A stretch of DNA of 27,699 nt from Saccoglossus kowalevskii. Taxonomy: Eukaryota > Hemichordata > Enteropneusta > Harrimaniidae. The notes beneath the pieces were generated by a model. The model saw only the letters and a list, made by a program, of their open reading frames with translations, was not told the DNA's origin and ran no database searches. This document shows, in pieces, positions 2,410 to 22,745 of this stretch (within the stretch, counting starts at the first letter, position 1; each line of letters opens with the position of its first letter). The translations under genes were made by a program, and so were the position numbers. The stretch spans positions 335,495-363,193 of the forward strand of contig NW_003124899.1 in the NCBI RefSeq assembly GCF_000003605.2, in the 5' to 3' direction.

Positions 2410-2514
2410 AGCATGGAACTGCAGGGAAACTGAGCAGTTTTATTTTCAAATACCCAAATCTAGTAGTAATCAATTGTGAAGGGTATACATATTGTCTGAC
2501 ACGATGACATAAGA
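2410..2514 (-). other. Cyclase 3' UTR with poly(A) signal at 2439-2444
   Basis: On the minus strand the first AATAAA after the stop lies at 2444-2439, about 70 bases downstream. It is followed within 25-35 bases by a T-rich stretch (about 2410-2390) typical of a downstream cleavage element. That gives a 3' UTR of roughly 100 bases. The exact cleavage point cannot be read. Confidence 0.6.
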
Positions 2515-2662
2515 TCAGGTGGTTCGGAAACCAATGACGGTCAATATAAGGATGGTGTACCATTGCCATTGTACAGTGATTGGCTGCTGGCCGCTGAATT
2601 CGTATATCCCTGTACATTCATCATCACCAATATGATCGATGCACATCATATGCATTACATCT
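2515..2662 (-). CDS. CD38-like: Cyclase exon 7: last disulfide, hydrophobic C-terminus, stop
   Basis: Codes for residues 270-318 and a TGA stop (2517-2515). The acceptor is TGTGTTCTTACAG. MMCIDHIGDDEC (275-286) matches LLCSDNPNAREC, the last family disulfide. The tail then runs YEFSGQQPITV and a hydrophobic stretch WYTILILTVIGF (304-315) before RTT. Small residues S293-G294 followed by a spacer and a short hydrophobic end fit a GPI-attachment signal, as in BST1 and the schistosome enzyme. At about 12 residues the stretch is short, so a soluble product remains possible. Confidence 0.91.
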
Positions 2663-5600
2663 CTGTAAGAACACATTTAACCCACGAATAAAACTTAATT
2701 AAATCAACTTTACTAGAAATGGTAGGATGAGCCTTATTTGTAACTAAATGTTATCTTGCAATTTCACAAGATATTATTGACTACTCACGGTGAATTTTCC
2801 ACGCAGTTATGAGCTATCCCCTTTTCGTCCAGAATTCTCTCTAATTCGATAATGGAAGCTGACGTACACGTATCACTGAAATATAAATGGTGTCATAGTT
2901 GTTTCAGTAACAGTGAATGCGTCTACTACTCGGAAGAGTGGTATGAACTAGAAGTTTTGTGCAAAGTCGGATAAACTCGTTTCATGGAAACTCACCCAGG
3001 TGTCTCGCCTATTAAAGTTATTAAATTTATGTTCATTGAAGCCACGTCTTCTGATGTAAGTATGGCCAACTCGTACTGTGCAAAGTAACTTTCAAAACAA
3101 AACAAAGTGATAGTGTGGGTCTGTAATAAGTTCATTGTAGTACAGCGGAAGGACACAAATTACATAACAGTGTGGTCAGGCATTTCCATGAACTTAAAAA
3201 AGGTCTTCTTAGTATTTACAGTTGTTCACATCGAATGTCATAGCTACTTTATCAATACAAATTACCTGTTATTTGATTGAAAAGCACCACCAGGACGATT
3301 GCTATTGAAAAACACTTTTGTATCCCCCCGTGCATACTCAGCAAACTGAAAAAAGAAAACAAATATCCAATATATGACCATGTTCAAATGTTTCATGATT
3401 GATTTATTTACATTAATAAATGGAAACACACTAAATATATGTTCATTCGAACTGAAACCATGTGGTTGACGTAACACCATTGTATTGTACAGTAATTATT
3501 TAGGGGAATTACCACTAACTATATCCATAACACTCAAAGGGATTTCTAGAACCACTTCCAGGAATTTCTACTGGATTTTCAGACCGATGTTTTTCTCCAT
3601 CGACAACATATGTTTTGTAGGTGAAAGGTGAACGTTAAATAAACATAAGCAAGAATAAATCATAAATATAAAAAAGGATGGTGGTTGTCACGCCGCATGT
3701 GAGACATTTGTGTTGATAAACATTTTCAAACAATCAAATGCGCTTTTCTAATAGAAATCACGAGTACAAGTTTTGACCGAGGCGCGACGTGCACTAATTA
3801 CCGCTAGTGACTCCTTCGATACCTTCAATCACCGAAGCAATTATCTAATTAAAACTTTGTAACATCTCAGTTTGTACTCGTTGGTCTGCACGAGTCAAAG
3901 TATTTGTTTATATGAGACCCATATCTCGCGCATGCCTGTAGTTTTTTTTACAACGTTCTATGTTGTAATAGTTCATTGTTGAGTAGTGTGGCATTTGTCA
4001 AGCAATGTCGTGGTTTAAAACAAGGAACCATAAAACTCGAGGTTTGTTTCTGGATGTAGATGATCGTTCTCCCTTACTTACATAAGTAGATGCAGCAGCC
4101 CAGAAAGCATCAATCGATCCTACACCAAATCCACATTCACCTTCCGCGGGACAGGCTTCAGTATCAAAACCAGACGGGTGAGTAGTTGAACCACAGAATG
4201 AAAGGTAGTTTCCAGTATACCCAATGAGAGTTGTATCTAAACTTGTTCTACGATTGCCTCGAAATGCATATTCTGTAACCGTATCGTACACGTCCCAACC
4301 ATCCCAGAATAGTGCCTACAAACCAATCACAAAACACACTATGCGTTGAACCTGCTAATCCCTGGGTTGGCAGACGTACAAAACACATCATTCATTGTCG
4401 CACTTGTTGCACCAAGTTGACGCTAGAATGACCTGAACGATGCACAAGAAATATATAATCTGTTTGGATGAGTGAGTACCCTCCTGAGGGCGACTTCAGT
4501 GTCTACCAGACGAACTGGTAACGCCGCCACTAGCGCCGCCAGTCTACGCCTATGTGAAACGCGTTGGTGAAACACTGAAGAATACGTGGCATTGCAATGC
4601 ACACGCACATACATACACCACTGTGTTGAATTTAGGTACAAATGGTTGCTGCGTATCTTTGTGCATAATAAATGTTTATATAATCTCATTTGTACATTTG
4701 TGAGTCACACTTGAATGTAGTGACGTCCTGTTTTGTACTTGGTCACGAGTCTGTATGAATATTAGTTATTTAGTAATTCCAAAATAAAGAGGCATGTCAG
4801 GTTAGTAACTAACATTCAGCACCAGCTACAGTTTGTGTTTTTTTATTGTCAAATCTTTATCAGTTGTTTTATATTGTGGACTTTATTATAACGTGTTATT
4901 GTTTTTACTTTCCTCGTTCGAAAAGAAGATCGAGAGAGAGACATCGAGTGTGAGCGGGAGCGTGAGAGATCCCGCCCGGGACAACCAATTTTATTTTGTG
5001 TGGTATTATATTATAATTTGTATCTTTCTAATTCATATTCATTTGAGATCTGCTGACACCCACTGCTAATTGGTTTCATAACGATTCCAATATAGTATCA
5101 AGCCAATTATGTGAAATAAAAAACACATATTGCTGATTGTTCAGATTGATTTGTCATATAGTTACATCGTGAAGTGTAAACTATCTTACTGGAGAGTCTA
5201 GTAGTGCTACTTAGCGGTAATTTACTTTCTACAAAGGCGAATCTCTTGCTCATCAAGTCACTCATATTCTCAGTAAATGCAGATGTCGTCCAAAGTTAGA
5301 TGTATTACTGGGTCTTACAAATGTTCAATCAAACACTGGTACATGCATCTATATATATTGCCATCCTTCAAAGAGGGACACCAGAAATATTTGTTTTCAT
5401 ATGGCACAAAAAAAAACATTCCAATGAATTTTCCAAACATTAATTCTAGTAATGCTTTATTGTTAAATAACGTCATTCTATTATGTCGATTTTCATGTTG
5501 TTCACTTGTATTTATAATATTAAGCTATACGATTCCACTAACTTTGTTGGGAATCATACTGATTCAACACATTTCTAAACTCAAATAGCATCGGTATTGA

Positions 5601-7982
5601 AAAAAAACACAATTTTCAACAACGTATTGGCTTTTCACTTGGAACTGACTGTGGTCCTTCACAGACGGATGTATATTTAGAAGAAGGAAAAAACGACATA
5701 CCTACATACATTATTGTCCCAAGTGCTTATATTTTTGCCAAAGGTGAGCATAACTATAAATAATCTTGACAATCCATCATAAATGGCTAACCAAAAAGTA
5801 TGTCCATATATATTGATATATACTTAAACGAGAACATGACCTGAAAAGCAAAACGTATTTGTTGGCAACTTACCGAATCAGTATCATGTGTGTGTTTGGT
5901 AAGAGAAATGAAATGTTGGTAATCCTCTTTTATGACGTCACATGGTTCTCGAAAAGCGACTGCAGACTCCAGAGAGTTCCATATCTCTGTGCAGTTCATG
6001 TTTCTGAAATAAATAATGGTTACAGAATGCAATATATAAATATTTCTGGAAAAGCGCATTTGCAGATGGCATCGATCATTTTAGTTTTGTTTTTGATACA
6101 TATGTGACAAGACTGGAGGTTAACATAACACAGACATTATGAGCATTTTTTATTCCATGTATTATATATTGTTAACTTGGCAGTGTGAGTCAATACACGA
6201 AAACACTTTTGTGTGAAGCAACAATATTGAACAATTCACCTCATTGGAAAGAACCATTTAATAAACAACATGGCTCTGCTCAGGCAATAAATCGTGATAT
6301 TGCCCTCACAAACTTGTGATATTTATTAAACTACCCACTGTGATCCATTCTGGATCACTGTCACTCCATTCACTAAGGCATCATACAACCATCTGTAGTT
6401 ATATCTTATTTTGTTTTATTTTGACTGGCCCTCTATGCTAACACGCTCTTTACCACCTACCCTTAATGGACGCTGGCTAGCTCAGCACCATTTCTTAAGA
6501 CATGCATCTATAGATTCGGAAATGTCTCAATTTCTGTCCTGATTTGTGAATCTGTTTCTAACACTGCATGATCCAAAGTTCTCAAAATATCTCAGAATAT
6601 ACCATAACAGATCTCTCATTTTGCAGCGGTTGTGTCAGGATTGCCTACCCTGAGCCATTGCCTCTATCCCAGGCTCGCTCGGTCAGCTATTTTATAAACT
6701 TCCCTAGTGATTGTAAATTTCGTTCTGGGATTTAGTGACAGTCCATGTGTGTAAATGTGGTTTGTCCCATGTCTTTTGATTATTTAGCCCCATTCATTTG
6801 TAATAATACTAGTAGTAAAACATAAACACAATATGCTATTGTGAAAGACAATAACCAGCCCATGCGTGAACTTGGTGGCGCTATTACAGTCGAGATTCTG
6901 TAGAGCGTATTAATCATGTATAAAACTGTGAATGTTATTTTCATAATTGTGCATATGTTTTTACTTCTGTCCCGCCTACGACGAGCTGAGGCAGCGCTAT
7001 ATTCCAAACATATACACTAAGCAGCCCCGCCTACAACACCAGTTCATTAACCTAATGACCAACAAAAATCCACAAACTGTTAGAAATTGTGCTAAATATG
7101 TATTTTATTCTTTTCGTAATAGAGAATCGTTGTTAGAGGAAGCAATTCTTAATGATATCTAACTATTGTATTTAATCTTTGTTTAATCTTTACCATGTGT
7201 AACCTGTGACCGCATATACTAGTGATGTATCTTTGAGTGTACTTAGGGTCGGCGGCCTATGGTACTTTGGAAATAAACATTATTATTATATAATGTTCAT
7301 ATTTTGGGTAACTTTCTGAAATCTATCCAGAAGCAGCCAGCGAGCGATTTTAAACATTTCCATTCAAATTATTTGATAACTGTCATGTACTTGTTTCTAT
7401 CAATATGGGTGCGGTACCCTTAAGCTGTTCGGTTGTGCTCTCGCTCTTCTCCTTTCAGAAGGTGCCCTCCAACTATGGAATTAAAATTATGCTCTACCTT
7501 TTAATTTTAATCTTTCCTTTTGCCCATTGCATGTGGTGTGTGCATCCAACTTTGTCGGACAGCTTCGGCTCTTGCACACAGAAAGTGACAAAATAATGGT
7601 AGTTACGATATCCTACTTGCTGAAGAATATTAGGCTATGCAGTGTACCGAACGTAAAGCTTGACAGTCAAAATACATGTGTCCAAGTAACACTCACTGAA
7701 CCTCACTTGTACAGCTGTTTACACAAAGGGGTTCGTTGACTGCTTCCGCCTGTCCCGCCACACGATACCCACGCAACATTTTTTACCCCTTACTCACGAT
7801 AGTTCTTCCTTGTCGATTCTGGGGTTGACATATCCCTGCTTGAAATCTTCGCATCGTCCTATGACAATCCTCTTGAAAGACGGTAGCGTGCCCGGTCCTG
7901 TAAAATCATCCGTCGCACTGCAAACCACACACAGGGTAACGACACTACTAAATAACAGGTAAATAACATCAAGTAAAGCCAT
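2515..7982 (-). CDS. CD38-like: ADP-ribosyl cyclase (CD38/BST1/Aplysia cyclase family), 7 exons, 318 aa
   Basis: Seen: exons 7982-7798, 6003-5874, 4315-4082, 3345-3266, 3088-2996, 2875-2789 and 2662-2515 join in frame (957 nt, intron phases 2,0,0,2,2,2, all GT-AG). The 318-residue product has a signal peptide (about 1-23) and ten later cysteines (44, 66, 83, 146, 160, 166, 244, 265, 277, 286), in the order and context of the five conserved disulfides of Aplysia cyclase. Active-site tryptophans are W109 (ALFW) and W177 (DAFW); the catalytic glutamate is E216 (QYEL). The extra CD38-only cysteine pair is absent. Family knowledge: these enzymes convert NAD to cyclic ADP-ribose, ADP-ribose and, by base exchange, NAADP, feeding calcium signalling. 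Odd: TLEDTL reads SLDTTL (130-135), so the CD38 E146 position is Asp132. Two residues are inserted between W109 and that motif. Inferred: ecto-enzyme, possibly GPI-anchored through its C-terminal hydrophobic tail. N-glycosylation sequons are N65 and N208. An in-frame TGA at 8028-8030 supports the start. Enzyme family is near certain; substrate preference is not. Confidence 0.95.
2789..2875 (-). CDS. CD38-like: Cyclase exon 6: CGAGS..CVEN segment
   Basis: Codes for residues 241-270 (partial codons at both ends). The acceptor is TTTATATTTCAG; the donor is CACC|GTGAGT. DTCTSASIIELERIL matches EKCGAGSLLDLEKLV, and HNCVENS matches FDCVENP of Aplysia cyclase. C244 and C265 form the fourth conserved disulfide by homology. 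Confidence 0.93.
2996..3088 (-). CDS. CD38-like: Cyclase exon 5: catalytic glutamate
   Basis: Codes for residues 210-241 (partial codons at both ends). I chose the acceptor at GTTTTGAAAG|T rather than the more canonical-looking TTTGCACAG 18 bases downstream. Only the upstream site keeps phase 2 with exon 4, and it adds SYFAQ before YEL, matching the DSFFGKYELPNL block of Aplysia cyclase. E216 aligns with Aplysia E179 and CD38 E226. Y211 occupies the Aplysia F174 / CD38 T221 position. The donor is CCTGG|GTGAGT. Confidence 0.9.
3266..3345 (-). CDS. CD38-like: Cyclase exon 4
   Basis: Codes for residues 184-209 plus two bases. The acceptor is TTTTCTTTTTTCAG; the donor is AACAG|GTAATT. FAEYARGDTKVFFN matches the FAEAACD..HVMLNGS strand of CD38. 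An RGD tripeptide (189-191) is present; whether it is exposed or binds integrin is unknown. The junction with exon 5 builds Ser210 (AG|T) and so completes the N208-N209-S210 sequon, close to where CD38 has KNST. Confidence 0.92.
4082..4315 (-). CDS. CD38-like: Cyclase exon 3: active-site tryptophans and variant signature loop
   Basis: Codes for residues 106-183 as one 78-codon exon. It starts ALFWDG (W109 corresponds to CD38 W125). It then carries the variant SLDTTLIGY loop (130-138) in place of TLEDTLxGY, and LSFCG (144-147) where relatives have L(T/V)WCG. C160 and C166 follow, and DAFW (W177) corresponds to CD38 W189. It ends STY|GTAAGT in phase 0. The coding frame stays open past the donor into the intron, so a plain ORF caller overextends this exon. 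Confidence 0.94.
4316..5873 (-). other. Cyclase intron 2, with a base-composition shift
   Basis: Bounded by GTAAGT and TTTGTAG. The block 4410-4690 is clearly richer in CpG and GCC than its surroundings and carries two close CGCCGCCA words (about 4512-4532). A purine-rich GAGAGAGAG stretch follows at 4930-4965, with a small GCGGGA/TCCCGC hairpin. These look like inserted repeat sequence of unknown family. The open frames here (4423-4689 minus, 4833-5069 plus, 5277-5588 plus) show no recognisable domain. Confidence 0.6.
5874..6003 (-). CDS. CD38-like: Cyclase exon 2: NCT..W and PCD region
   Basis: Codes for residues 62-105. The acceptor is TTATTTATTTCAG and the donor is TCG|GTAAGT. It contains NCTEIW (65-70), corresponding to the DCSALW/CQSVW segment of known cyclases, and EPCDVIKEDY (81-90), matching the HPCNITEEDY block of CD38. 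N65-C66-T67 is a glycosylation sequon with cysteine in the middle. C66 should pair with C44, and C83 with C166, by homology. Confidence 0.93.
6004..7797 (-). other. Cyclase intron 1 (contains an antisense LINE fragment)
   Basis: Bounded by GTGAGT and TTATTTATTTCAG. Besides the LINE remnant (about 6945-7290) it holds a perfect short hairpin, GTGATCCA-TTC-TGGATCAC at 6340-6358. It also has a TA-rich pair of inverted ATTAAAATT/AATTTTAAT words near 7478-7512. I see no other coding exon on either strand. Confidence 0.85.
6945..7290 (+). mobile_element. 5'-truncated LINE (non-LTR retrotransposon), 3' end
   Basis: A reading frame from 6968 to the TAA at 7160-7162 begins CPAYDELRQRYIP and continues through a basic, aromatic tail. 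This is the widespread C-terminal signature of CR1/jockey-type LINE reverse transcriptase proteins (CPxYxxLRxxYIP). Just upstream, HMFLL-like residues sit in another frame, so there is a one-base frame slip before the cysteine. The tail is a 3' UTR of about 125 bases ending GGAAATAAACATTATTATTATA, cut here to its last bases: AAATAAA followed by ATT repeats. AATGTT occurs just outside both ends (6931-6936 and 7292-7297), a possible imperfect target duplication. The insert is antisense to the cyclase gene and lies wholly within intron 1. Confidence 0.65.
7798..7982 (-). CDS. CD38-like: Cyclase exon 1: signal peptide and first cysteine
   Basis: Codes for residues 1-61 plus two bases of codon 62. 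A hydrophobic core at residues 4-22 is followed by a likely cleavage after CSA (residue 23), then a variable linker and the family hallmark IGRCEDF (41-47), matching FLGRCKDYE of the Aplysia enzyme. The donor is TC|GTGAGT (7797-7792), phase 2. The start is the first ATG after an in-frame TGA at 8028-8030. Confidence 0.93.
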
Positions 7983-8036: not shown

Positions 8037-8128
8037 ACTGCGTCAAGAGTTAATTGGAGTCACGTGCACTACGAGTGATGATCACATGCTCATCCTTATA
8101 AAGATACTAGTACTGTGGCGGGAGGGGT
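8037..8128 (-). promoter_or_regulatory. Probable cyclase core promoter: GC box, TATA box, E-box
   Basis: Reading the minus strand toward the gene: a GC-rich box (CCCTCCCGCC, about 8126-8117), a TATA-like TTTATAAGG (8102-8094), and CACGTG (8066-8061). Start of transcription would fall near 8065-8072, giving a leader of about 85 bases. The element CCTTATAAAG is almost symmetrical and could also serve the plus strand. Downstream, ACGTCA half-sites lie near the ATG. All of this is motif reading without expression support. Confidence 0.45.
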
Positions 8129-8130
8129 AT

Positions 8131-10356
8131 TTGTTTGTCGGGACAGGTCTAATGGTAAGCTAAACTAATAGTAATAGTACAACTTCAATGATAGCATAGC
8201 ATTCTCGATAGTTTTGTGGCTGCTCACGCCGTGGTGAGGGCTTAGTTTGATGACAATATATCACCTTTGACTGCCCCCGTTTGAGGCCAAAGAAAGGATT
8301 GGTTTGCATGTCAGCATAATAATAATTTACTGCCACACAGATACTAAGGTTTCAATTAGGTTGTTGAATAAACAATATGTGGTTTGCGGGAAGGACAACT
8401 CATATTCAAAGTGGGTCTATTCGGCTGGTAGGTCCTTCCAAATTGAGACTGTGCCAAGTTGACTCGCATGTTTTTAGCTTTTCTCCTCCACGGAGAGCTT
8501 TCTCACGGAACTCACCTGAGGTTACAGAAGGGTTAACAGACTGGTACTCCCTCGCTCCCGGTTTTAACACACTTCAGGGGTCCAACAGTTCATTCTGACT
8601 GACTTACCTCGATAATGCACAAACACATGCAAATATCTTAGTATATGAACAGTAAAACTTCACCCTAATGGCGAACGCAACTAAGGAATTCCAATTATTC
8701 ACATAAAAGGTCTGAGAATGCAACAATCCATCCACGGGTGAGTTGGCATTTGTCGTCTACAATTTACAAGGGGACAAAAAGCGGCGGATAGTTTTACATC
8801 ATTTTACATGTAACCTTTTTCACGTTTAAACGTGTCAATGCAATACCCATATAATATGGCTCTTCAAATGTCCTACTCCTTTGAGCACACCTTAGATGTG
8901 TTATGATAAAGTCGTGTATGGGGCACGTTTACATTGTATACAAATTGGTCTCACTAATCTGCAGTTATAAGGCAGTCCTGCTTATGAGGTTTGCATTGAG
9001 GTCTAATTGAAGTTAAAGTGGGTCAACAGTCAAAGCTCACAAATAACAACCTGCTTTTCTAAAGAACTACATGTTGCATTACCGAATCTCACACATAAAA
9101 CGTGCTCATAACAATTACTTACATAACAACGACAATGAATTAGCGAGAACTGTGCGATGACATTCTTGAATAAACGATTCAATGTCATGTATTTCATTGA
9201 GCACTTTCTGATGACATATATTTTTTTTCGAGAGTCTGCATATAAAGAAACGCATTCCACTACGGTTGTGTTGTACCGCGTCTCGTGATGCGCAACATGT
9301 AATGCCCACAGAACACATTGGTAAATATGTCATCCTTGCTGGGTTTGTATTCTGTGACAAAACATCGTATATTGAAACCTGTGCATTTTTTATCGTTTCC
9401 ATTGTCTTGTAAATAGTATGTAAATTTTGTTGAGAAAGTGGTATTCGTTTTTGAAAACATAGTAAAGAACAAAATAAACTATACATGAAACAATCTTTTG
9501 ACCTTGGCTACTCTGAAACATATTAATATTTAAAAAAATGTGTAAAATGAGGGGACCATGCTGCCAATGGTACGTTTGAATTCATTGTTATGTAAATATA
9601 TTGATGAAGGGATAATCTATTGAGAAAGTACTTCTTGACTGTTCACAAATTTAATGTATTTTGAGTGCAATTGAGTATAAACAATAAATAATTAGATATT
9701 TCTCTAACCGACACCAAAGACAAATAATACAATGGCAAAATTCCTAGTAAAATTCGTAAGCTACAGTAATTCATCTATGTTTTAAAAAAGGAAATGCTGC
9801 CCTAATAAAGATAAGTGTAGTTCAGGGGAGATATACATCATCTAAATAAACATGTAGATTGAAATATGGATTTTATGGCTTGTGAGGAGCAACTGCAAAT
9901 TCGTTTGTATTATAAACATAGTATCATCAATATTTTTTTACGTTTGAAAGTGTTATATCAACATCAACAAAGTAGCATCACAGGGTAGTTATTATCTATG
10001 AATCTTTTATAATAAAGTGATGTCGGGTATATATTATAAGCTTTTCATCACATGGACATCTCCAAGTGCAATAAAGACAAGGACATTATAATTTTGTCTA
10101 AACATTATATTATATTATTATACATATTATACATATATACATAAGTAACAGCGTGCCGTAATTACGCGGTATTTTATGGCGTATGTACATCCTATCATAT
10201 AAGGAAATGCGAATTCCAAATATGCAATGATTACGCGCGTAACATGGCTACCACCAGAGTTTGACCGGACTCCACACAAAGAAGTTCGCTGATTCTGTTC
10301 TAAACGTTTTGGATTTCTCACGATGTATTCTTGGAGAGAAAAGATGTATATTAATA
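8131..10356. other. Intergenic stretch upstream of the cyclase, no confirmed gene
   Basis: Strong minus-strand splice-donor matches occur at 8607 (CGAG|GTAAGTCAG) and 8513 (CTCAG|GTGAGTTCC), and could belong to a distal 5' UTR exon of the cyclase. A plus-strand ATG|GTAAGC lies at 8153. A 123-codon minus-strand frame (9486-9115) has no recognisable domain. The rest is AT-rich DNA without visible structure. Confidence 0.45.
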
Positions 10357-10485
10357 AGGATATTACGAGAATACCTCAAAGTATGCACTCAGACAGTACG
10401 CCGCGCATCGACCTCCGCTGCGCCTCGGTCGATACTCCAGCTGTACTATCTTCGTGCATACTTTGAAGTATTCTCGTAATAACCT
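10357..10485. repeat. 129-bp palindromic (foldback/MITE-like) element with GC-rich core
   Basis: Outer arms 10357-10400 and 10442-10485 are inverted copies matching at about 39 of 44 positions (TTACGAGAATAC..TCAAAGTATGCAC). Inside them a second short stem, ATCGACC/GGTCGAT (10407-10413 and 10427-10433), frames a GC-rich loop. The CpG-dense core stands out sharply in AT-rich DNA. No clean target duplication is visible. This fits a non-autonomous foldback element or a cruciform-forming repeat. Confidence 0.75.
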
Positions 10486-10875
10486 CATATTATATTATAT
10501 TCAACATAGCATGGCAGTTGAGTGTGATAATTTTCTCTATCCTCATACTGCGTGCAAACTGGGTACATCCGTCGAGTGGATTGAACGTTCGACACCATGG
10601 CTTAGTTTCACAAAGTACGCCACTGGTTTTACACAATATATTTTGAGATTTTATCTGCAGTTTATTTTGATTCGTCTCTGAAATCATAATCGGTATTTCC
10701 ACACCAAACAAATTCGTCCCTCCAGGAGTACCGTTTTTCGAAACATAGCACAAATAAACAATATTCAGAAGTACTATATTTTTGCCTTGGGGTACATGAA
10801 TATACTTGCCGAGTGAAATGAAATTTGAACAACAGTAATGGTACTTTTAGACAGTCACTTATTTTGACTAAAAGT

Positions 10876-10926
10876 AATTTGCATATCACCCATGTTTTCG
10901 GTATTTTCACGGTCGATATGCAAATG
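10876..10926. repeat. Inverted octamer-like pair ATTTGCATATC/GATATGCAAAT
   Basis: An exact 11-bp inverted repeat is separated by about 29 bases. The ATTTGCAT word is the POU/octamer consensus. It may be a binding-site pair or chance hairpin; no nearby gene supports regulation. Confidence 0.4.
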
Positions 10927-12947
10927 AACATGGTATTTCCATTGGCTACCGAACTATTTTTATTTTGTAAGCACATTTTCGTCTGATATTTTTATCCGGT
11001 TCAAATTGTTCAGCAACATATTTGGCATATTAGGTGTACATCACATCGTGGCTCAACTAACGTCCACGAGTAATTTATTCGGACAGTGATTCAGATTGGA
11101 TGTCTGATTATTTTATTTTCACACAGACAGTGAAACGCGTTCTACACTGACACGCGTTGCTATAGCGTAACACTATCTTGGAACATATTAATGGGCAATG
11201 GGGTTCCTTGACCTAAATTCCATCCCTGTTTGTTGCACGTTTTTCTTTAATATGAAATAATCAAATATGGAACATATGTAATAATAACAGAACCTTCGCT
11301 CGTGAAAGTAGGGCCGCAGGATACACCGCATCTCTCGTGAAAATAACTTCCATACACAACGAAAGCCACGGGGAGGATGTGGGGTTCTGTCATAGTATTA
11401 TATTAATTCGAATATATCTCGCAGTTTCAGAAGTCGACTAAAACTCGTGTGTGATATAAAGCCGTCTATATTTTCGACGTCATTATAAACTCTCACATCA
11501 CAAACTCTCACAACTTTTTCTGCGCACAGAAGTGTGTTTAACTCACGTCAAATGGTGAGTGTTAACGTATTGTGGAATTTGAATTGATTCCAAAATTTAT
11601 CATAATGATACAAATACATCCCGAAATCATAATTACAGCAATGGCTGCACAAATGCAATAACGGTAATCTTAGGATATACAAATGAGCTAGATCCCTCTA
11701 CGATTTCTGAAATCTCAAATTACCACGTCAGTTTTTATTCAGAATGAATGGCAATGACTTACACTCGTTCGAAAAATCTAATTGAAATCTATCTATATTG
11801 GTAGTAGTTCAAGGCGATTGATATATGATATATGGGACCTAACAGATGTAACATTAATATTATAACAATAAGAAATAACACAAATAACAAAGACAAATAA
11901 CATTAGGAACAATAAAATATAACAATTAAACAATTACTGGAAATGTACATCCTATACCTACATCAGATGATTCTGTGGTGAGATTGCGATACGATTTGAC
12001 AGAACGGACTATTTAGTGTGTGTGTGTGTATTACATTTATGTACAATCAATTCGAACGCAAGCTGTGCTATTACTCTAGCGGTTTATATCACGGGCCATG
12101 ACACAATGGTCGTCACGGTATCTCATCAAAGCGCACAGATTATTCACTGGAGTAAAATCGTTTTATAGCAGATAATTTAGATTTCTCCCAATGAATTATA
12201 TTTGTCTTTAATATCTAGAGTAGGCCTATATACTTCTAGTGTACGTCGACCGGGATTTATAATGGCTTTATCGACGTGATCAAAATACCACAGTTTTAGG
12301 GTGTACCCGGTTTGGATCTAGGTAGAAGGTCACTCGCATAGTAAACATAATTTATGACCTAAGTACTATTCTTATCTGCTGTCTAAATGTTTGTACTAAG
12401 ATTTTTTTTTATTTTTGGCGGGCATATGCAGCGCGCGAGGCTCGCGGTACACAAGAAATTTGGAGAATTTGTTTAGACATAAAAAAATAAGTGCTTGTAT
12501 ACATCCTGAATTCTTATTTGCTATTTAATATTCACGGAACTACGGAACACATTTTGTAACATGTGTGAAAGTTACATGTTTATTGGCATAGTAAAAGAAC
12601 TGTTCTAGTTGCAGACTGCACTAAAATCTCGTAAAAATACAATGCAATATTATGGTTCAGTGGGCTAAGTTGAACCAGTTTCACGAGGTAAATGTACATA
12701 GAAACTGTTGACTAAAAAAGTATGATTTCAAGAGAAGATAAGAATATAGTATAGTATATAAGTATAATCTAGGCTGATGATACAACTCCAGCATCTCAGC
12801 CTAGTAGTAAACAACTGAATTAGGCACAATAGGCCAAATCTCTGAAGGTAAGACACCAACATTACTGATATGAAAAGACAAACTGAGGGCGCTGTACAAG
12901 CAAAAAGGAATTCAACCCATATACCGCCACCTATGTTATTTTTTAAT

Positions 12948-13110
12948 TATTGCGCCACCAGTTTTCAGAATATGACGTATCTTGGAACTATTAGGCTATC
13001 GCTCTTCAAAATATGACAACTCTGTACATTTTAGCGCCCCCGGTGTTGAGAATGTGATTTATATTCATTATAGCGCCACCATTTTTCATAATAGGAATTA
13101 TTTATAGTTG
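12948..13110 (+). repeat. Degenerate tandem units headed (T)AGCGCCACC
   Basis: Units start near 12948 (ATTGCGCCACCAG), 12996 (CTATCGCTCTTC), 13032 (TAGCGCCCCCGG) and 13071 (TAGCGCCACCAT). Each is followed by T-rich then AATATGA/AATGTGA/AATAGGA sequence. Unit length is about 36-48 bp. A CCGCCACC head at 12924 may be an eroded first unit. The GC heads recur in otherwise AT-rich DNA. Confidence 0.55.
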
Positions 13111-13420
13111 AATTTTTCATCAAAACACACAGAGATCTCACTGTACCCTGATTATATAGTATTCAATTTAAATAGTGTTTTCGATGCGTAGTCAGGTGCG
13201 GTGTTTGGTGCTGGTGGTGGTGTCGGCAAAGCGTGATGCCATACAGACATATTTGTTCATTTACTGATTAATAAGCTATATGTTTATTCATCATTGATTT
13301 GTATTAACTTTCATATTCATTTGTTTAGTTATTTATTAATTTGGTTAGTTAATCTTCATATTAATATACTTATTTTAGGCCCTCTACTATATACATTATA
13401 ATTTACTTCCAATGTATATA

Positions 13421-13462
13421 GGAAATCAGACTAGACTAGCAGTAAGCTATTTTCTGATTTCC
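13421..13462. repeat. Perfect 10-bp inverted repeat GGAAATCAGA/TCTGATTTCC
   Basis: Arms 13421-13430 and 13453-13462 are exact inverted copies with a 22-base spacer, forming a possible hairpin. The flanks are AT-rich with ATT and AAAT runs. There is no sign of a gene or a terminator context. Confidence 0.6.
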
Positions 13463-14102
13463 TTTTTACCTAGTATTTCTTATTGTTATTATTATTATTG
13501 GGTAAATAAATAAATATTATTAAATAATAGGAGATTTAATTCTAAAGCACTGTTTTTATATTATTTTCGAAATTCGCATGTTACTTGCCGAACTCATCGC
13601 TGGTTTTAAAACAACTTGTTTTATTATCAACCGAGAGCTGGCGCCTCATACAAAAAGACCGAGATCATAATACCTGACGTTGGGGGAGTTGTTTTACTGG
13701 CAACGAATGCAGTTTGTGTCAGTTAGTTTAACAGTTGCATACTGGGCGCACGTGAAAATGGCGCCATCTAAGACAAATATCACCATTAAAAACAAGTAAA
13801 ATTAAAAGTAAAATATTTATTTATAATAAAACATACTTAATAATTGTTCTATACTGTGTAAAGTTATGTTGAGGCTTCATTTTTTGTAGATTATGTCGAC
13901 TTTTATCCAGGACAACAACAAGAACAGTTGACTTCCAAAAACTTTGAAGTTTGTCTGGTTTCTACAACATTGAAATTGATTGTCTCATACTTCGAAAGGT
14001 ATATTTATTTGAATAATATATTGTTGCGTCATGGTTTGCAGGTTAAACTACCTGCGACCCACACCCAGAATAATCCTCGGGTCAATATACTTAATTATAC
14101 AC

Positions 14103-14103
14103 C

Positions 14104-14134
<31 letters not shown>

Positions 14135-14142
14135 TCTTTCTC
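14103..14142 (+). repeat. (CT)n microsatellite
   Basis: An almost uninterrupted CT dinucleotide run of about 40 bases, broken by CC and TTT near its 3' end. The serine/leucine runs in overlapping open frames come from this repeat and are not protein evidence. Confidence 0.95.
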
Positions 14143-15045
14143 ATATCCGTAGTAATTTCCTCTCAAAGCCAATCTATATAGAAACGAATAGTCACTACCT
14201 AATACAAGTAACAATTACCCGCAGTAAGATGCCAATTAAAGTTACTGTGTTTTCCATTGAATGAAACTCCTGGTCAATCGTATTCTGTTAGGATTACATC
14301 AACCACTGCTTGAAAATTGCCTCTCGGACGTATTACACTCGATTATCTGTGTCGTACAAATTATCGAATGCATTGGGTTACGTATAATGGAATACCGCAA
14401 AATAACGTTTCTCGAGGATCGGATTACTTAAGTTGCCACCTTCAATTGCGTAAAGCTAGCTTCAAAGGAGCGCTGGCGGAAATAGTGTTGAGTCTCGCAG
14501 TTCATTCACTTGACTTCGTTGTTAATTATAGTAGATTGGGTTCGTAGCGGGAAGGTTACTTTTTATTGAATTTTCAGTCAGAATGCTTCAAAAAAAGGAA
14601 AGGGGTGTTTGCAAATGTTAACCCCGACGATGTCGCGGGGAAAGGGATATTATTCAATCGTGGGTAATATCGCACACGACCTGCATCACAGGTGATCTAA
14701 CCACGGATATCAATGGCATGTGACGTGTTTGATGCATGCTTGAGAGGTTAGCAAAATCATTGGTTTATATTCCTAATGGCGGGTGTGACATTTAGAGCAG
14801 GAAATGCTCACACTTTTCGACATTGTGTTGCCGCTAGCCGACAGAATTGCGCATTTTTTGTATTTGCATTATTTTAAAAGTTTGAAAGTTAAGCGTTTTT
14901 GGCGAAAATATGTATTTTCTAAAATTGTTGTTTCATATGGAATTTTAAGGACCATGTTGGATTATGAGTTATTGTACCCTAATTCTTTTTCTTTTGAAGC
15001 GTACTGTATAAAAGTCTTTGAATGAAAAACGAAAAACACCTTCTT

Positions 15046-15097
15046 CGCATGTGCGGTGATTGTTATTGTACGTACCAAAACAATTACTGCACATGCG
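15046..15097. repeat. 19-bp inverted repeat with GCGCATGTGC-like ends
   Basis: CGCATGTGCGGTGATTGTT (15046-15064) and its near-perfect inverse (15079-15097, two mismatches) flank a 14-base spacer containing GTACGTAC. The end words resemble NRF-1 sites (GCGCATGCGC). It could be a small palindromic element or a regulatory hairpin. Confidence 0.6.
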
Positions 15098-15501
15098 CAT
15101 TAATTAGAGAGTCGTTGTTTCAGCGAACGAATACTTGGATATGAGCTTTGAGAACAACGTTTTTAGATCGTTACAAACCATAATCAAATATATTTATCAA
15201 CATAAAACAGTAGTATCAACAATTCAATTTTCTTGTGCATATTTCATCTTTAAACACGTACCTGCAACAGTGTTATGAAGATACAATGTTTTTTTCAATA
15301 CACTAGCGTAGTAGCAACTATTTGGTAAATTTATGCTTTGTCATCTTCATTGTGTCATTTATTCTGCAACAGTGTATCTGTGAACGCGTATTTAAATATA
15401 TCTTTTAAATTATTACAAAAAAAAAGGTAAAACAATTTCAATATTAACAATGCAGTGTTTTCCTGTTTATAACTTGTATTTCGCAGAAATGTATAAATAA
15501 A

Positions 15502-15783
15502 GTGCTATGCATGCGTATATGTTTACTATGTATGATTATTGCTATGGTAACTGCACAATTATCAGATGATGTAAAGATCAATATATTAGTATTTCTTCGT
15601 GCATGTAATTTATATTGCTTTCATATTTCCCGACCAGTACTTGATGAATTCAATGCAAGGGAGAGTGGAATTGGCTGCGTTAAAATCCGCTTCTCGTGTG
15701 TTGGTTTCCGTGATTATATTTGCAGTACGTTAACGCTCAATATATACTGTCCCAACTGCAGTTCTGGCAAATCAATGCACTGA
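15502..15783 (+). CDS. Candidate small secreted Cys-rich protein (weak)
   Basis: A 93-codon open frame starts MLCMRICLLCMIIAMVTA, a good signal-peptide shape with a likely cleavage before QLSDD. The remaining 75 residues contain seven cysteines, with spacing that I do not recognise. A TATAAATAAAG word lies at about 15491, too close to the ATG to be its TATA box. Frames this long arise by chance in DNA of this composition, no splice or poly(A) signal supports it, and an odd cysteine count is unusual for a secreted fold. I cannot assign a function. Confidence 0.15.
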   Translation: MLCMRICLLCMIIAMVTAQLSDDVKINILVFLRACNLYCFHISRPVLDEFNARESGIGCVKIRFSCVGFRDYICSTLTLNIYCPNCSSGKSMH

Positions 15784-17410
15784 TCTCCCTTGATATGTTC
15801 CCACATTTCAACTTGAAATAATTACCACACGTCTCCGTGAAATGAGAAATAATATAACCTAATGTTTAATATGCGTTTCTATCGTACCATGCATACTATC
15901 TGCGTGTATTTTTGTTCAAATAACGCCGACACACCAATGCTAATCACCGCGATATTTAATCACCAATGCCCTTAGCAGACAGTCCGCCTAGCAACCATCA
16001 ATCGATGCCTAATCCAACTTTCCAACATATTCTATTCAATACACTTGTGTATGTACATAATCAAATCGGCTCGATGGTTCAATTGTATTCGTGCTTGAAA
16101 TTTCACCAAAGACACACGCATACATCCCACACACTGTGGTTCTTTATAGATGTGATTCATTTGATTGTAACATTTGCTTAGTGTAATTGCAATTCGCATG
16201 GAAATAACTATCGGGGTTATGCTGTTCTTTATCCTTCGTACGTATATATACAACTGTTGTATAGAATGTATAATTCAAGGCTGGTTGTATACACATATAT
16301 ATATATCAATAAGACAGGGTGCTACACAACCAATTATCTCGAGGAAGAAAGTTGTCGAGTGTCTTAAACTTAAGAAGAAAAGGAACAAATCTGATTATCT
16401 CTGCTGATCAAAAGGGGGAACGTGACTGTTAAATACTATGTGTGAAATTTGATGCGTGCAGTCTTTTGAAGTAATTAAATTTCCTGGTAAGAATAAATGG
16501 ATTTGTAACATGACGTTTTAGTGTCACAGCTATTCACCTCACACAGGTGTCCGCACAATGGGATAGAGAAGGCCGTGAATGTGATCTAGAATAACATACT
16601 AAAAGGAATAATGTAAACGTATCTCTAACTGCCAAGTGATGCGAACAGTGTCTATGTGTAATGAGATTAGTTTCTTTCATGCTTTGTAGGCGCGATTCGG
16701 CTTACCGTGAGTTTGGATATATTCAGATGTAAAATATATTCTCTTCTACTAATTAATAAATGTATTCCAAAGTAGTTGCATTGACACCTTTTCGCATTTA
16801 CATCTTTCCTCAAGAGTTAACAATTGTCAGTTCAAGTATACTGATATATAGTGAAAGTATCACGGATCTATTATCATATCTTGTGTGGTACGAGTAACGT
16901 GAACATCACATTCAGACATTTTCATATCACGGTACTCCAAAATACGTTATTACCTTTTATATTTTATAGATAGAAACCAGTAATTGTAGTTATTAATTAG
17001 TTATGTACTTTATAGGTTACCGAACCAAATTCAAATCAAAATAGTTTATTATAAGGGCCTGAATCCCTACTGCTTTTCGTGAGTTGTTTTGAGAGAACCG
17101 CTGATCGGAATGCTTTCACATTTCAGTGTTGATATGAGCTAATGGGAACTGACGCATCATGCTTCCGAAATTTGGATTGGACACGTGATGTGACAGCCGA
17201 ATTGGTTTTAGCATTTTTGAGCTTTTTTAAGCTACATTTTTATATTATTGGCATATATGCTAACAATATTGCAAATACATATAGCACATCATATGATGTT
17301 AGTTTGTGTTATTGTTAATGTACCAACAAAAACGGCGTAATTTTTTGAATCTTGGTAACTTAGTTGAAATTGAGTTAACGAGAAATGGCTTTTAAAATAG
17401 ATAAAACTTA

Positions 17411-18192
17411 TTTGGGGGGGGGGAGTACTACATCACCAATTGAAATTTGGGTATGTCATTTAGGTTTCGCGTGACATCAACACCACAATTCGTCGCATTG
17501 TTTGGCAGACATCTTGGATCTTTTAAGACAATTGTTAAGAAGTATTCAATTGACTTAATCGCGGGGGCCACAACGATTTGAATTTGTTGTGTACTTCCAA
17601 TATGACCAATTGAATCGACAGAACATCACGTGACTCGTGCTATACATAATTACCATAAATTCAATAACATGCTTTGTTATTTACTTTGTACCAATTGCAT
17701 TGAATATATAGAAGCCGATTATGACTAATCACGTTATTTGACTGCCGTTTTAGAGTTGCGGCATTTTCGTATAAGAGTGCTGCGCAAGAATATCGGCAGT
17801 GTTACACTGGCAGCATCAGTTCAAAATATTTCTGAATGCAAATAACGAAAAACCAAAGAGCAGGAAATTGTTATCTGTAAATTGCGGTTTGTATAAAGCT
17901 ACCTTAAAAATATTTATAATCACCTTTTTATGTTTCATACACTTTTTCATACATCGATTTGATTACATCACACCTATTCACAAAATTATTTTACAATAAT
18001 ATATTCCTATTTAAAATGTGTGACACACGTGGCGCAACAAACACTATAATCGGATCATTTGGGAATTTGTTGGGTGTTTTATTTCCACTTTATCGAAATG
18101 CAAATCAGCAATTCTTTGTGCTTATTGCCAATAAAGAGGAGATATATACAACGTAACCAAGCGTAAGACGATTAGTTCACCCCCCCCCCAAA
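17411..18192. mobile_element. Possible non-autonomous DNA element with T3G10 inverted ends and TA flanks
   Basis: TTTGGGGGGGGGG (17411-17423) and its exact inverse (18180-18192) are the only long G and C runs in the neighbourhood. They are flanked by TA on both outer sides (17409-17410 and 18193-18194), as expected for insertion into a TA target. The 782-bp interior has no transposase-like frame, and the inverted identity does not continue past the homopolymers. That makes it a MITE-like candidate only. Two unrelated homopolymer runs would look the same. Confidence 0.35.
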
Positions 18193-21100
18193 TAGCGCAA
18201 AGGCCTAGTTATATAATAAAATGAAATTTTCCACATGAATGCGCTTCTATGATTGCTCTTTTTGTGTTTTCAATAACTAGGGAATTAAATCTTAGGTGTA
18301 GTCGTACTTTGGCCGAGAATGTCGACACTTAGTGCAACAAACCCACCCTTATTATAAACCTACACAGTGGATGCTGAAATGTTAAATAAAAATAGAATGT
18401 TATAATCAACATGATAATAAGCTCATGCTCACGTTGCGATAACATTACATCGTACACATGGAATTTGGCAATAGTTTATCTACTTTTTTATCGATATAGT
18501 TTATTAGCATTTATTCGACAACGCAAGTTGAAACCATCCCAGATTGGGCTTATACTGATAAATAGACAGTGGATGTGAGAGAGGCCTGAACATCGTAAAT
18601 GTAGTTTCCGAAAACCTTATGGTCAGTTTGAAAGTAAACTTATTTTGGTTAAAAAATCATTTTAATTGTTCTCCACCAGTTCGACAGTCAAAATGCATGT
18701 ATTATTTTATTTTCCCACTGTGTACAGTCAGGAATATATTTTTGGACAACATTTGAGGATAAGTCCCGTTTAAAGGCATGCGAGTCTTCAAAATGACTTT
18801 CAATCACAGGTTTATTTAAATCATTGTTAATCAATGTGCTAGTATTTACTCCAAACTGTTTTGACAATTTGTTCTTTCAGGGCAGAAAATGGTGTGCGTA
18901 ATGTCAGCATTTGAGATTGACTGAAAAACGACTACATCTTTCATGACACACTGGCGGATTGTGGGAATCGTGACGTACGGGGTAAGCATAATTAGTTATA
19001 TACGGTCGAACAAATTAGCACAACCGTAAGATGTTTTTTCTTTGAAGCATATTTATTTTACCGTGAATAAAACAAACCACCATAATTTTTTAATATGTTT
19101 CCAATGTGTCGTGTGTGTGGATATGATGAAAGCTGGGAATATAGCTCATACACACCCGAAGCATTCAGCCATCGATGATACGAACGGTAAGCCACTACGA
19201 GCAACTGTAATTGCAACCACTGTGTTAACCTCGTATATGTATGTATACTTGAGTATACTGTCAAGTCGTTGCTTGCTTGGTTGACGTCGCTATCACTAGC
19301 AGTTCATTGTATTTGCTAGGGTCGGGAAAAATACTTTTCACATTTTTTCACAATTTCCGTCAATTTAGCTAGCAACCTCGACAATCTGCAGCATTGAGGA
19401 AATGCACGATGTTACGCCTACCATTAAATACATCACAGTATACGGTTGGGGCAATCTAAACGACGTACCGCTTTTGTTCGTCTACAATTGATTGTCATTT
19501 ATAAAATGGTAAAGAAGCCGCATAAAAAAGTCAATAATGGCTCTCTCGTTAAATGTCGCATGAAATGATACATCTATAAATCTCAGATGTCCTGCGACTT
19601 GTCATTCATTTGCATAATCAACTCAACTATACATTTCATAGAGGCAACTTACCCATGATGCAATATGCGTTTGTTCAATCCACCACTCATCAACCTGCGT
19701 GTCCCTAGATACAATAAGGCAGGCGAGGGAATAATGAAGGTACCTTACGCCATGTCAGATATAATTCGATGCTTGACAAGTTTTTTACGCCATGAGCAAT
19801 ACGCTGAGAAAGGGTGCAATACGATTTTAATCGTGACAACACTATGTGGAAGTCACACTTCCAAACTGTAAAATAAAAAAACCAATTCGACTGGCGAGTA
19901 AAATAAATAAATTGGATGAACATGCAATGAAAATTGGATTGCGTTGAGGTTACACTTCAACGAACGAAGCAGATAGCCATTGCGCGTACTATTAGACTAA
20001 GTGGTAGTCGGAAAACAGGAAAGCTAATATAACCAATTTACCGAATTTCCACGTTCTTATGTCAATCCTTTTAGACTCGGGGGAAAAATAATTAACTATT
20101 AATGAGCAATATACTTGCAAATCTTAAGATTAGAAGATAAGAAGGTCGGGACGTTTTTTTTTCTAGTTGAACTTGTGGGGATAATACAATGTCACGAATG
20201 ACGATTGCACATAACGCGTACGGTTAGAACAGTTCACATTACATTATGAAAGGTCAATGCTTATCACAAAAACGTCTTAAACAGGCAGGGCAATCAGGCA
20301 TGAACAAACACAGTATACATGAACACTATTTCTTGGGTGGAAAACTAATCCCTTAAAGATGGCTACGCACTCATCTCAACGTTGACTGAAACACATACTC
20401 ACGCCAACATTGAGTGACATATACATGTATATTCACATCAACGTTGACTACGAATCGTATCTGTCTTTTTGATAATTCAATAATTCAATATATCCAAATG
20501 ATTCATTGTAATCTAATTATAGTGTGTTAGTATTACATGTACTATGATGTGTTTGTTTGTTTTAGACGGGCAAACCCTAATGAAATACAAGCAAATTTAT
20601 ATAAATTTCAAGTATTTAAAAAAAAATGTAAGAAAGCATGAATTTGCGTAATTATTTTTTGAGGGATCAGAGCTAAAAACAAAACACGACCAGTAGGTCG
20701 ATTGGGAATAATTGGTCCAAGTTGAGAAGTTACATTGCCCATCTTTATAGGATTAATTAATGAAAGCATAGTGTGCCATCGTGGCCTCGAAGCTAATTTC
20801 TCCGGCGAAGATAGATGATAATTTTTACATATAAACTTCATTCATAAAAAAATAATGGCAGTGTTGATTTTATTTACCTTTAAACATTATATATTTACAC
20901 TTTTCAGTTTCTTGGTTTCCAAGCGAAGCGGCGATGATTCATATTAAGCTGCTAGGGTGTTAAATTAAGCATTTTTTACAACATGGGACCATTCATCTGT
21001 TGGTTTATGTTACAAAAACAGATCAAGACAAGTAATTTCAATATTTAGGAGTGGCGTGTCGACAAATATATGTTTCATACACATGCTCGCATAATTATAT

Positions 21101-22495
21101 GCATTGACATTTCAAAATAAGCATTGGCATTATGAAAATAAGTAACAATTTGTCCAAAAAATAAATCCATATTACTTATGGGCAATTTGGGACCCGTTGG
21201 TTTCCTTCTTTGCATTATTTAGCGCGGCATGAAGATGAAATTACAATTTCTAAAGCCGTCATAAGGACATGTAGTTAAATTATAAATTCCATGTAAGTCG
21301 ACCTTCGTTACAATCTATTTCGAGCCTTCCTTTGGGCGTGTAATGTGCATAGCGAGGTACGCTCAATGTGTTCGAATCATTTGTATTCGTTCATAATGTG
21401 CAAGGTAGTTAATATGTCATCGCTAAACTCTTCCTTTGTGTGCATTCTTGATGAAGCAACACTGATGTCGCCAATAAAGTCTCGCCGAATCGATGCCTAT
21501 TAATTTGCAAAGCATCAAGTTCATATTCAGTGAACCAATCTATACATATCATCATCGCCAGTCCATCTAACGAAAGCAGTGGTAGCACAATTCCCTGCAA
21601 TGATAATCATCAGTTCACAATTAGAATTGTCAGTGCCGCGCCTGAATGTCGGCTCATATATTTTGCTTATATGTATCTGTGTCGCTATCGAGTCATTTGG
21701 CTCGCCTATAAAGAATGTCAAACTAATCTTCTAATAGATGTGACTATTCTGCCTGACTTATTCTAAATTTGGATGATTAACACTCGTTGTAAGATTAGTT
21801 ATTTCGCATTTATGATTCTATTATTTGCATTGACATGTGTTCACAGTATGTGCGTTGAAAATGGAAATGTCTACTTTGTATTAAATATGTAATTGGCATT
21901 TAAAGAAAAAAAATATGTTTTATTTGAGAATTCATCGCATTTCTTGTAGTTACAACAATTGTTAATACTGTGACATTTCTTTGTAGAAATTATATTTAAT
22001 GCACCTCGAAGGTAGGATTGTGCATTTTTAGATGTAAACAGATTTTACTTTATAGTACATAATTCTTTGCAAAGTGACAAAAACCCCAAATATATGATCA
22101 AATAATGGAACACAATTATTGAACATAATATATAAATAAAACAAATATGTGCTTGACATTTGAAGAAAAATAAATCGTGAGAGACCTTTCACGATGCGAA
22201 GATCTGCCAATAAATTAGAATTGAATAATAAAATAAAATATAATATTACTTTACATCTATATCATGTATACAACTAATTAATCAAAACTTGTTTTACTCT
22301 ACATCCCACAGTTAAATTAATCTTATTTATTTATTATTAGTATGTCTAGCATCGTTGTCATAGTTACTAACGTATATGCGACCAGACAATCGGTAAGCTC
22401 TCGGGCAACTTCGCTATTCACAAATTACCCTCTCTAGGAACAGACATATCTCAGAACTAGACTTAGAAGACATATAGCTACCAGGCCAAATACGG
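18193..22495. other. Non-genic stretch, isolated splice-like signals only
   Basis: A 101-base plus-strand segment (18881-18981) has a strong acceptor (TTTGTTCTTTCAG) and a donor (GG|GTAAGC), but stops occur in all three frames; at most it is a non-coding exon. A minus-strand segment at 19653-19702 also has both splice signals and one open frame. A minus-strand frame at 20608-20841 and the exon-like piece at 21409-21594 are unassigned. Nothing links these into a gene. Confidence 0.45.
20368..20463 (+). repeat. Three-unit tandem repeat with CAACGTTGACT
   Basis: Units of about 32-34 bp begin CAC at 20368, 20400 and 20434. They carry TCAACGTTGACTGA, GCCAACATTGAGTGA and ATCAACGTTGACTAC, then CATA/GTAT-type ends. 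The middle unit is the most diverged. The core word is shared with the repeat at 2010. Confidence 0.6.
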
Positions 22496-22745
22496 ATGTT
22501 CACCAAGGATGCACGCACGCCGAGAATGACTACCATGCTCACGTTGTTGCGAGAAAAATGCAAGATTATTCTGTTTCTGTTTGCAATGTTAACTCCAGGA
22601 AGAGGATTTACTACAACATCGGTGAGTTTAATCTGTGCTATGTATCCGAGAAACACCAAATGATTTGAAATGCTGTAATTGTTGATAGGAATATTTTTGC
22701 TTACAGTCGAAGATCATAAAACCTCGTCGAATATCTACAGTATGA
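22496..22745 (+). CDS. Candidate two-exon secreted micropeptide, 54 aa (weak)
   Basis: Exon 1 (22496-22621) follows an in-frame TAG (22475-22477). It codes for 42 residues with in-frame ATGs at 22496, 22526 and 22535 and a hydrophobic core KIILFLFAMLTPG, fitting a signal peptide or signal anchor. It ends TCG|GTGAGT. An 85-bp intron ends TTTTTGCTTACAG (22706). In phase 0, exon 2 then adds SKIIKPRRISTV and a TGA at 22743-22745. Both splice sites are strong for this gene-poor stretch. Against it: the peptide is tiny and unrecognised, no near poly(A) signal is seen, and the minus strand of exon 1 is also open (22659-22414). Confidence 0.25.

Follow-up and report, generated by a model that had tools for sequence, protein, structure and literature searches.

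An animal ADP-ribosyl cyclase gene with SLDTTL at the position of the TLEDTL loop

Results and Discussion

The minus strand of the window (the whole stretch of 27,699 nucleotides that was analyzed) carries, from 7982 to 2515, an animal ADP-ribosyl cyclase/NAD glycohydrolase gene, apparently intact and, judging from its sequence, predicted to be expressed and active, in which the regulatory loop reads SLDTTL (residues 130 to 135) instead of the TLEDTL of Aplysia cyclase and human CD38. Enzymes of the CD38 type convert NAD into molecules that act in calcium signaling. The glutamate of this loop is a known switch among cADPR synthesis, cADPR degradation and NAD hydrolysis, and here it is an aspartate. 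We consider the product to be a secreted, possibly GPI-anchored NAD-converting ectoenzyme that would have kept the core chemistry of the family and would release cADPR more readily than hydrolyze it, a reading to which we assign a probability of about 0.5. The gene encodes a naturally occurring variant of a familiar enzyme and not a new kind of enzyme, and the supposed role of the family is unchanged. How this switch evolves can be tested on such a naturally occurring Asp variant, in which the partner His has also changed.

Gene structure

The gene comprises seven coding exons, all on the minus strand, with a spliced length of 957 bases (318 codons plus the stop). The splice model was assembled manually, with the sequence and the alignment of the family as guides, and its residue numbering agrees with that of the preliminary description of this DNA (W109, D132). 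Exon 1 (7798..7982) contains the start codon, a signal-peptide-like stretch and the first conserved cysteine, Cys44, while exon 2 (5874..6003) encodes residues 62 to 105, with Cys66 and Cys83. Exon 3 (4082..4315) encodes residues 106 to 183 and carries Trp109, the SLDTTL loop, the FCG triplet, Trp177 and Ser181. It is followed by exon 4 (3266..3345; residues 184 to 210), exon 5 (2996..3088; residues 210 to 241, with SYFAQYEL, Tyr211 and Glu216), exon 6 (2789..2875; residues 241 to 270, with Cys244 and Cys265) and exon 7 (2515..2662), which encodes residues 270 to 318 and the stop and includes Cys277, Cys286 and the hydrophobic tail YTILILTVIGF. On the same strand, 70 bases past the stop, lies an AATAAA hexamer (2439..2444), a possible polyadenylation signal. 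All six introns have GT-AG borders, and the 318 codons are read without a stop or frameshift.

The interval that the preliminary description had singled out coincides exactly with exon 3, which is flanked by TTTGTAG and GTAAGTAA (4315 to 4082 in the direction of reading). The alignment places small extra insertions in this exon around THPSGF and CGFGVGS as well. For exon 5, a start after TTTGCACAG was ruled out, as it breaks the frame with the donor of exon 4. The acceptor TTTTGAAAG was chosen, which keeps the frame and gives SYFAQYEL against the SFFGKYEL of Aplysia; the open frame across the junction of exons 4 and 5 is partly the result of this choice.

Eight exons are reported for the Aplysia, snake and vertebrate CD38 genes (PMC6368836; PMC9033130) and nine for the CD157 gene (PMC9033130). 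Our model has seven coding exons and not eight, with an additional untranslated exon being possible. Exon counts, which are unequal even in CD38 and CD157, do not define the family. In human CD38, according to the gene description in PMC9033130, Lys129 is found in exon 3, a Trp numbered 185 in exon 4 and the catalytic Glu226 in exon 6; here, exon 3 holds both active-site Trp stretches and exon 5 the catalytic Glu. If Trp185 of CD38 is the second active-site Trp, as we assume, exon 3 is likely an apparent fusion of exons 3 and 4 of the human CD38 and Aplysia genes, with intron loss as the simplest reading.

To look for paralogues within the window, we compared the protein to it with a loose tblastn search, which recovered its own exons, all with E values of at most 1.5e-12, and no further match with an E value under 5.8. 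Six-frame Pfam scans of positions 8101 to 27699 (with X at stops), from which short exons can escape, retrieved no family at E values up to 0.1, leaving some 20 kb of upstream DNA without a known domain in these scans. Rfam (gathering threshold) and tRNA searches of the whole window gave no match. This upstream part contains an inverted repeat (10354 to 10488) with 46-nt arms that are 87% complementary and separated by 43 nt, possibly a short inverted-repeat element, and, on the plus strand (15502 to 15783), an open reading frame of 93 amino acids that opens with a hydrophobic signal-peptide-like stretch, in a region with no Pfam match. At the other end of the window, a 46-nt direct repeat is present at 383 to 527 in two copies whose sequences agree to 85% and whose starts lie 99 bases apart; a 19-nt tandem repeat lies close by, at 323 to 367.

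Family membership and conserved core

The translated protein matched the ADP-ribosyl cyclase family PF02267 with an E value of 2.2e-55 and 188.1 bits, against a curated cutoff of 25, along profile positions 3 to 239 of 241. Among proteins of solved structure, the best matches were Aplysia cyclase (E value of 8.3e-34, 120.5 bits, query residues 36 to 287) and then human BST-1/CD157 (E value of 1.7e-33, 119.5 bits, query residues 30 to 287), with the mammalian CD38 entries ranking after both. Identity in the MAFFT alignment was 30% to Aplysia cyclase, counted across the aligned domain, and 29% to human CD157. In the three-sequence alignment (the window protein, Aplysia cyclase and human CD157), all ten family cysteines occupy invariant columns, in line with the earlier observation that they are intact. 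The FW, W, S, F and YE columns are also invariant, so that Phe108, Trp109, Trp177, Ser181, Phe212 and the catalytic Glu216 are kept in all three proteins. The alignment assigns the first active-site Trp (CD38 W125, bovine W118) to Trp109, with its codon at 4304..4306, the second (bovine CD38 W181) to Trp177, at 4100..4102, and the catalytic residue to Glu216, at 3072-3070, all on the minus strand. The catalytic Glu and the two active-site Trp by which membership in the family is judged are therefore all present. Along these lines, the catalytic Glu and both Trp are conserved in the published sea urchin alignment, and one Trp is missing in Schistosoma (PMC1949048).

Beyond the ten conserved cysteines, the protein has only Cys18 and Cys21, both within the presumed signal peptide, and the CD38-type pair C119-C201 is therefore absent. 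This pair is reported to be indispensable for cADPR hydrolysis by CD38 (PMC9033130), and its equivalent is described as absent in Aplysia too (PMC6368836). The N and C termini are the most hydrophobic stretches of the protein: the most hydrophobic 11-mer starts at residue 10 and, among the eight most hydrophobic ones, the sole 11-mer outside the N terminus begins at residue 305. Termini of this kind would be expected of a signal peptide at the N-terminal end and a GPI signal at the C-terminal end. Entry of the product into the secretory path is probable and a final GPI anchor possible.

The regulatory loop and its surroundings

Within the loop (4226..4243, minus strand; codons AGT TTA GAT ACA ACT CTC), Asp132 (codon 4237-4235) stands at the place of the regulatory Glu (CD38 Glu146) and Thr133 at that of the next Asp (CD38 Asp147), and the TLEDTL signature is not found in the protein. 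HMMER and MAFFT both aligned SLDTTL onto the TLEDTL of Aplysia without gaps, and both placed two extra residues directly after FWDG, which brings the spacing between the first Trp and the loop to 23 residues versus 21 in both Aplysia cyclase and human CD157. FCG (residues 145 to 147; 4190..4198, minus strand) is found where Aplysia and human CD38 have WCG and human CD157 has WCR. These changes, namely the two substituted acids that give SLDTTL, the insertion of two residues after Trp109 and the replacement of WCG by FCG, had all been proposed from an unaided reading of the DNA and were recovered in the spliced translation and in the alignments. Nor has the Glu been displaced within the loop, as there is no Glu between Glu120 and Glu158.

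A single sequencing error behind the loop is unlikely, because the Glu and Asp codons have both been replaced in frame and Ser has taken the place of Thr. With one genomic copy seen and a splice model made by hand, we also considered a wider assembly or sequencing error, or a gene in decay; the six GT-AG introns, the 318 codons free of stops and frameshifts, the retention of the ten cysteines and the catalytic residues and the several loop codons that differ in frame all argue against it, making this explanation highly improbable.

The regulatory subsite has changed outside the loop as well. Thr119 (codon 4274..4276, minus strand) aligns with Aplysia His85 and bovine CD38 His126, a placement that could shift if the two-residue insertion were set elsewhere. 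In bovine CD38, Glu138 is reported to be hydrogen-bonded to Trp118 and to His126, and the latter may relay protons (PMC3329556). CD157 has Asn at this partner-His position, so that Glu and its His partner are both absent in the two Glu-less proteins of the alignment (2/2, a very small sample). The earlier statement that the other catalytic residues are intact is thus correct for Trp109, Trp177, Ser181 and Glu216 but not for the position of Aplysia His85. At the position of bovine Asp147 and CD38 Asp155, the window protein has Asn141, Aplysia also has Asn and CD157 has Asp. Where the cited papers do not print a residue number for Aplysia cyclase or human CD38, the number given here comes from counting. 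Tyr211 (codon 3087-3085, minus strand) is found at the position of Aplysia Phe174, where CD157 has Phe. Phe174 is said to direct the folding of the substrate for cyclization in Aplysia, and its counterpart in CD38 is Thr221 (PMC3686795).

Predicted chemistry of the enzyme

In the reading that we prefer, NAD would enter the active site, held and folded by Trp109 and Trp177, and nicotinamide would leave, with Glu216 holding the ribosyl intermediate as in CD38. The fate of this intermediate would then be decided by the loop acid. The Glu of the CD38 loop is described as holding the nicotinamide amide as this group leaves, together with N6 of the adenine and the attacking water molecule (PMC3329556). 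A shorter acid without its partner His would have a weaker hold on the attacking water and on cADPR; the intermediate would go to cyclization or base exchange more often than to hydrolysis, and the cADPR released would be degraded slowly. We would expect this lean toward the cyclase reaction, together with poor breakdown of cADPR, because the Asp lacks the His, an aromatic residue occupies the Phe174 position and the extra disulfide is absent. That the loop Glu sets the balance between cyclization and hydrolysis, as the preliminary description had stated, is reported in the literature (PMC6368836, PMC3686795, PMC12356396), and CD38 Glu146 mutants, the Asp mutant included, are reported to reach cyclase activities of up to 9-fold that of the wild type (PMC6368836, citing Graeff 2001).

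A bolder reading, possible but doubtful, is that an invertebrate lineage rebuilt the regulatory subsite (Glu to Asp, His to Thr, Asp to Thr and two added residues) into that of an enzyme devoted to cADPR synthesis, with little capacity for hydrolysis. If this were true, the CD38 gate would be evolvable by coordinated change and not by loss of the acid.

Human CD157 warns against certainty about a cyclase lean, since it too has other residues in place of the Glu (Ser) and the His (Asn), and its residue at the Phe174 position is Phe. In HeLa transfectants, it is reported to show NADase activity with almost negative NGD cyclization, and its catalysis is rated as far weaker than that of CD38 or Aplysia cyclase (PMC5698419). 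The same source refers to reports of cyclase activity of CD157 at acidic pH with metal ions and states that NGD and NAD cyclization are not always equivalent, NGD being an imperfect proxy (PMC5698419). The window protein could by analogy be a weak ectoenzyme of this type, with a relaxed subsite, acting mainly as a surface or binding protein and hydrolyzing NAD only slowly. The two proteins have the absence of Glu and His in common, their stretches before the catalytic residue are similar (FFADYE in CD157 versus YFAQYE), the score to CD157 is close to that to Aplysia cyclase (119.5 versus 120.5 bits) and the window protein has a hydrophobic C terminus too. However, the acid is retained here as Asp where CD157 has Ser, the core catalytic residues are kept, and a common loss of the Glu does not imply a common function, so that we hold this explanation only tentatively and as rather doubtful.

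Hardly any replacement of a Glu is milder than Asp, and the Asp may largely be able to stand in for it, which would count against a cyclase lean, as does the fact that Tyr211 differs from Phe. The enzyme might then be an ordinary multifunctional NADase with CD38- or Aplysia-like products, in which Asp132 has taken over the role of the Glu, the two inserted residues offset its shorter side chain and the loop has drifted neutrally. The acid-for-acid change is indeed conservative, the insertion is found in the same segment and the loop already varies among accepted members of the family. On the other hand, Asp is listed among the replacements that raise cyclase activity in CD38 (PMC6368836), and the partner His and the adjoining Asp have changed as well; we regard neutral drift as unlikely. 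With the cyclase-leaning ectoenzyme as the preferred reading, altered chemistry is plausible and the product ratio is a prediction. The original view of a functional gene with altered chemistry stands insofar as the gene has an open frame and sound splice sites and retains its cysteines and catalytic residues, while the exceptional status it gave to the loop is weakened by CD157 and by the bacterial enzyme Nac1.

How widespread is the canonical loop

In the three aligned loops (SLDTTL in the window protein, TLEDTL in Aplysia and PLSDVL in CD157), the two leucines alone are common to all three. TLEDTL is said not to vary among snake venom enzymes and to occur in every CD38 molecule (PMC6368836), and it has been termed the signature motif of the family (PMC3329556). 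Because human CD157, an accepted member, reads PLSDVL, we take TLEDTL, from the aligned sequences, to be a mark of CD38 and Aplysia cyclase rather than a defining feature of the whole family. Bacterial Nac1 is reported to have Ala at the site of the loop Glu and to yield cADPR and ADPR at a ratio close to one (PMC12356396). The preliminary description had placed the loop among the most conserved of the family; with PLSDVL and WCR in CD157 and Ala in Nac1, the rarity of the change was overstated. When the window gene is viewed alongside CD157, with Ser, and Nac1, with Ala, the "signature" would seem to be a property of certain branches and not of the family as a whole.

We also scanned viral contigs with the window protein and prokaryotic genome contigs with the three-sequence alignment. 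None of the 6 pattern matches in the former or of the 72 in the latter encodes a relative. Bacterial members are already in print (PMC12356396), so the prokaryotic scan either missed them or they are too distant. The collections scanned were viral and prokaryotic, and misses in them carry no information on animals. SpARC4 reportedly has a noncanonical active site with Tyr142, in a paper from 2010.

Comparison with known enzymes

Aplysia ADP-ribosyl cyclase (PDB 3zwm, 1lbe and others) has the same ten cysteines, both active-site Trp and the catalytic Glu, as well as an Asn at the position of Asn141 and an aromatic residue at the Phe174 position. It differs by TLEDTL instead of SLDTTL, by His instead of Thr119, by having two residues fewer after the first Trp and by the eight exons reported for its gene (PMC6368836) versus seven coding exons here. 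Human CD157/BST-1 (PDB 1isf) shares the ten cysteines and the catalytic residues and, like the window protein, has no loop Glu, no partner His and an aromatic residue followed by Phe-Ala before the catalytic stretch. CD157 is GPI anchored, while anchoring of the window protein is only suspected, and the two differ in PLSDVL and WCR versus SLDTTL and FCG, with the second Asp of the loop kept in CD157 and lost in the window gene. Human and bovine CD38 belong to the same family by sequence search; unlike the window protein, human CD38 reads TLEDTLLGYLADDLTWCG at the loop region. CD38 is also reported to have the extra C119-C201 pair (PMC9033130) and Thr221 at the Phe174 position (PMC3686795), neither of which is found in the window protein.

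Other members can be set beside the window protein from their published descriptions. In Nac1 of Actinophytocola oryzae, the equivalent of Glu146 is described as naturally absent, with the catalytic Glu kept and a signal peptide predicted (PMC12356396); this enzyme differs in being bacterial and in having Ala at the site. Sea urchin SpARC1 to SpARC3 are invertebrate members with ten cysteines, a signal peptide being predicted for SpARC1 and SpARC2 (PMC1949048). The Schistosoma enzyme, another invertebrate member, is described as GPI anchored and is without a Trp that is kept in the sea urchin enzymes (PMC1949048).
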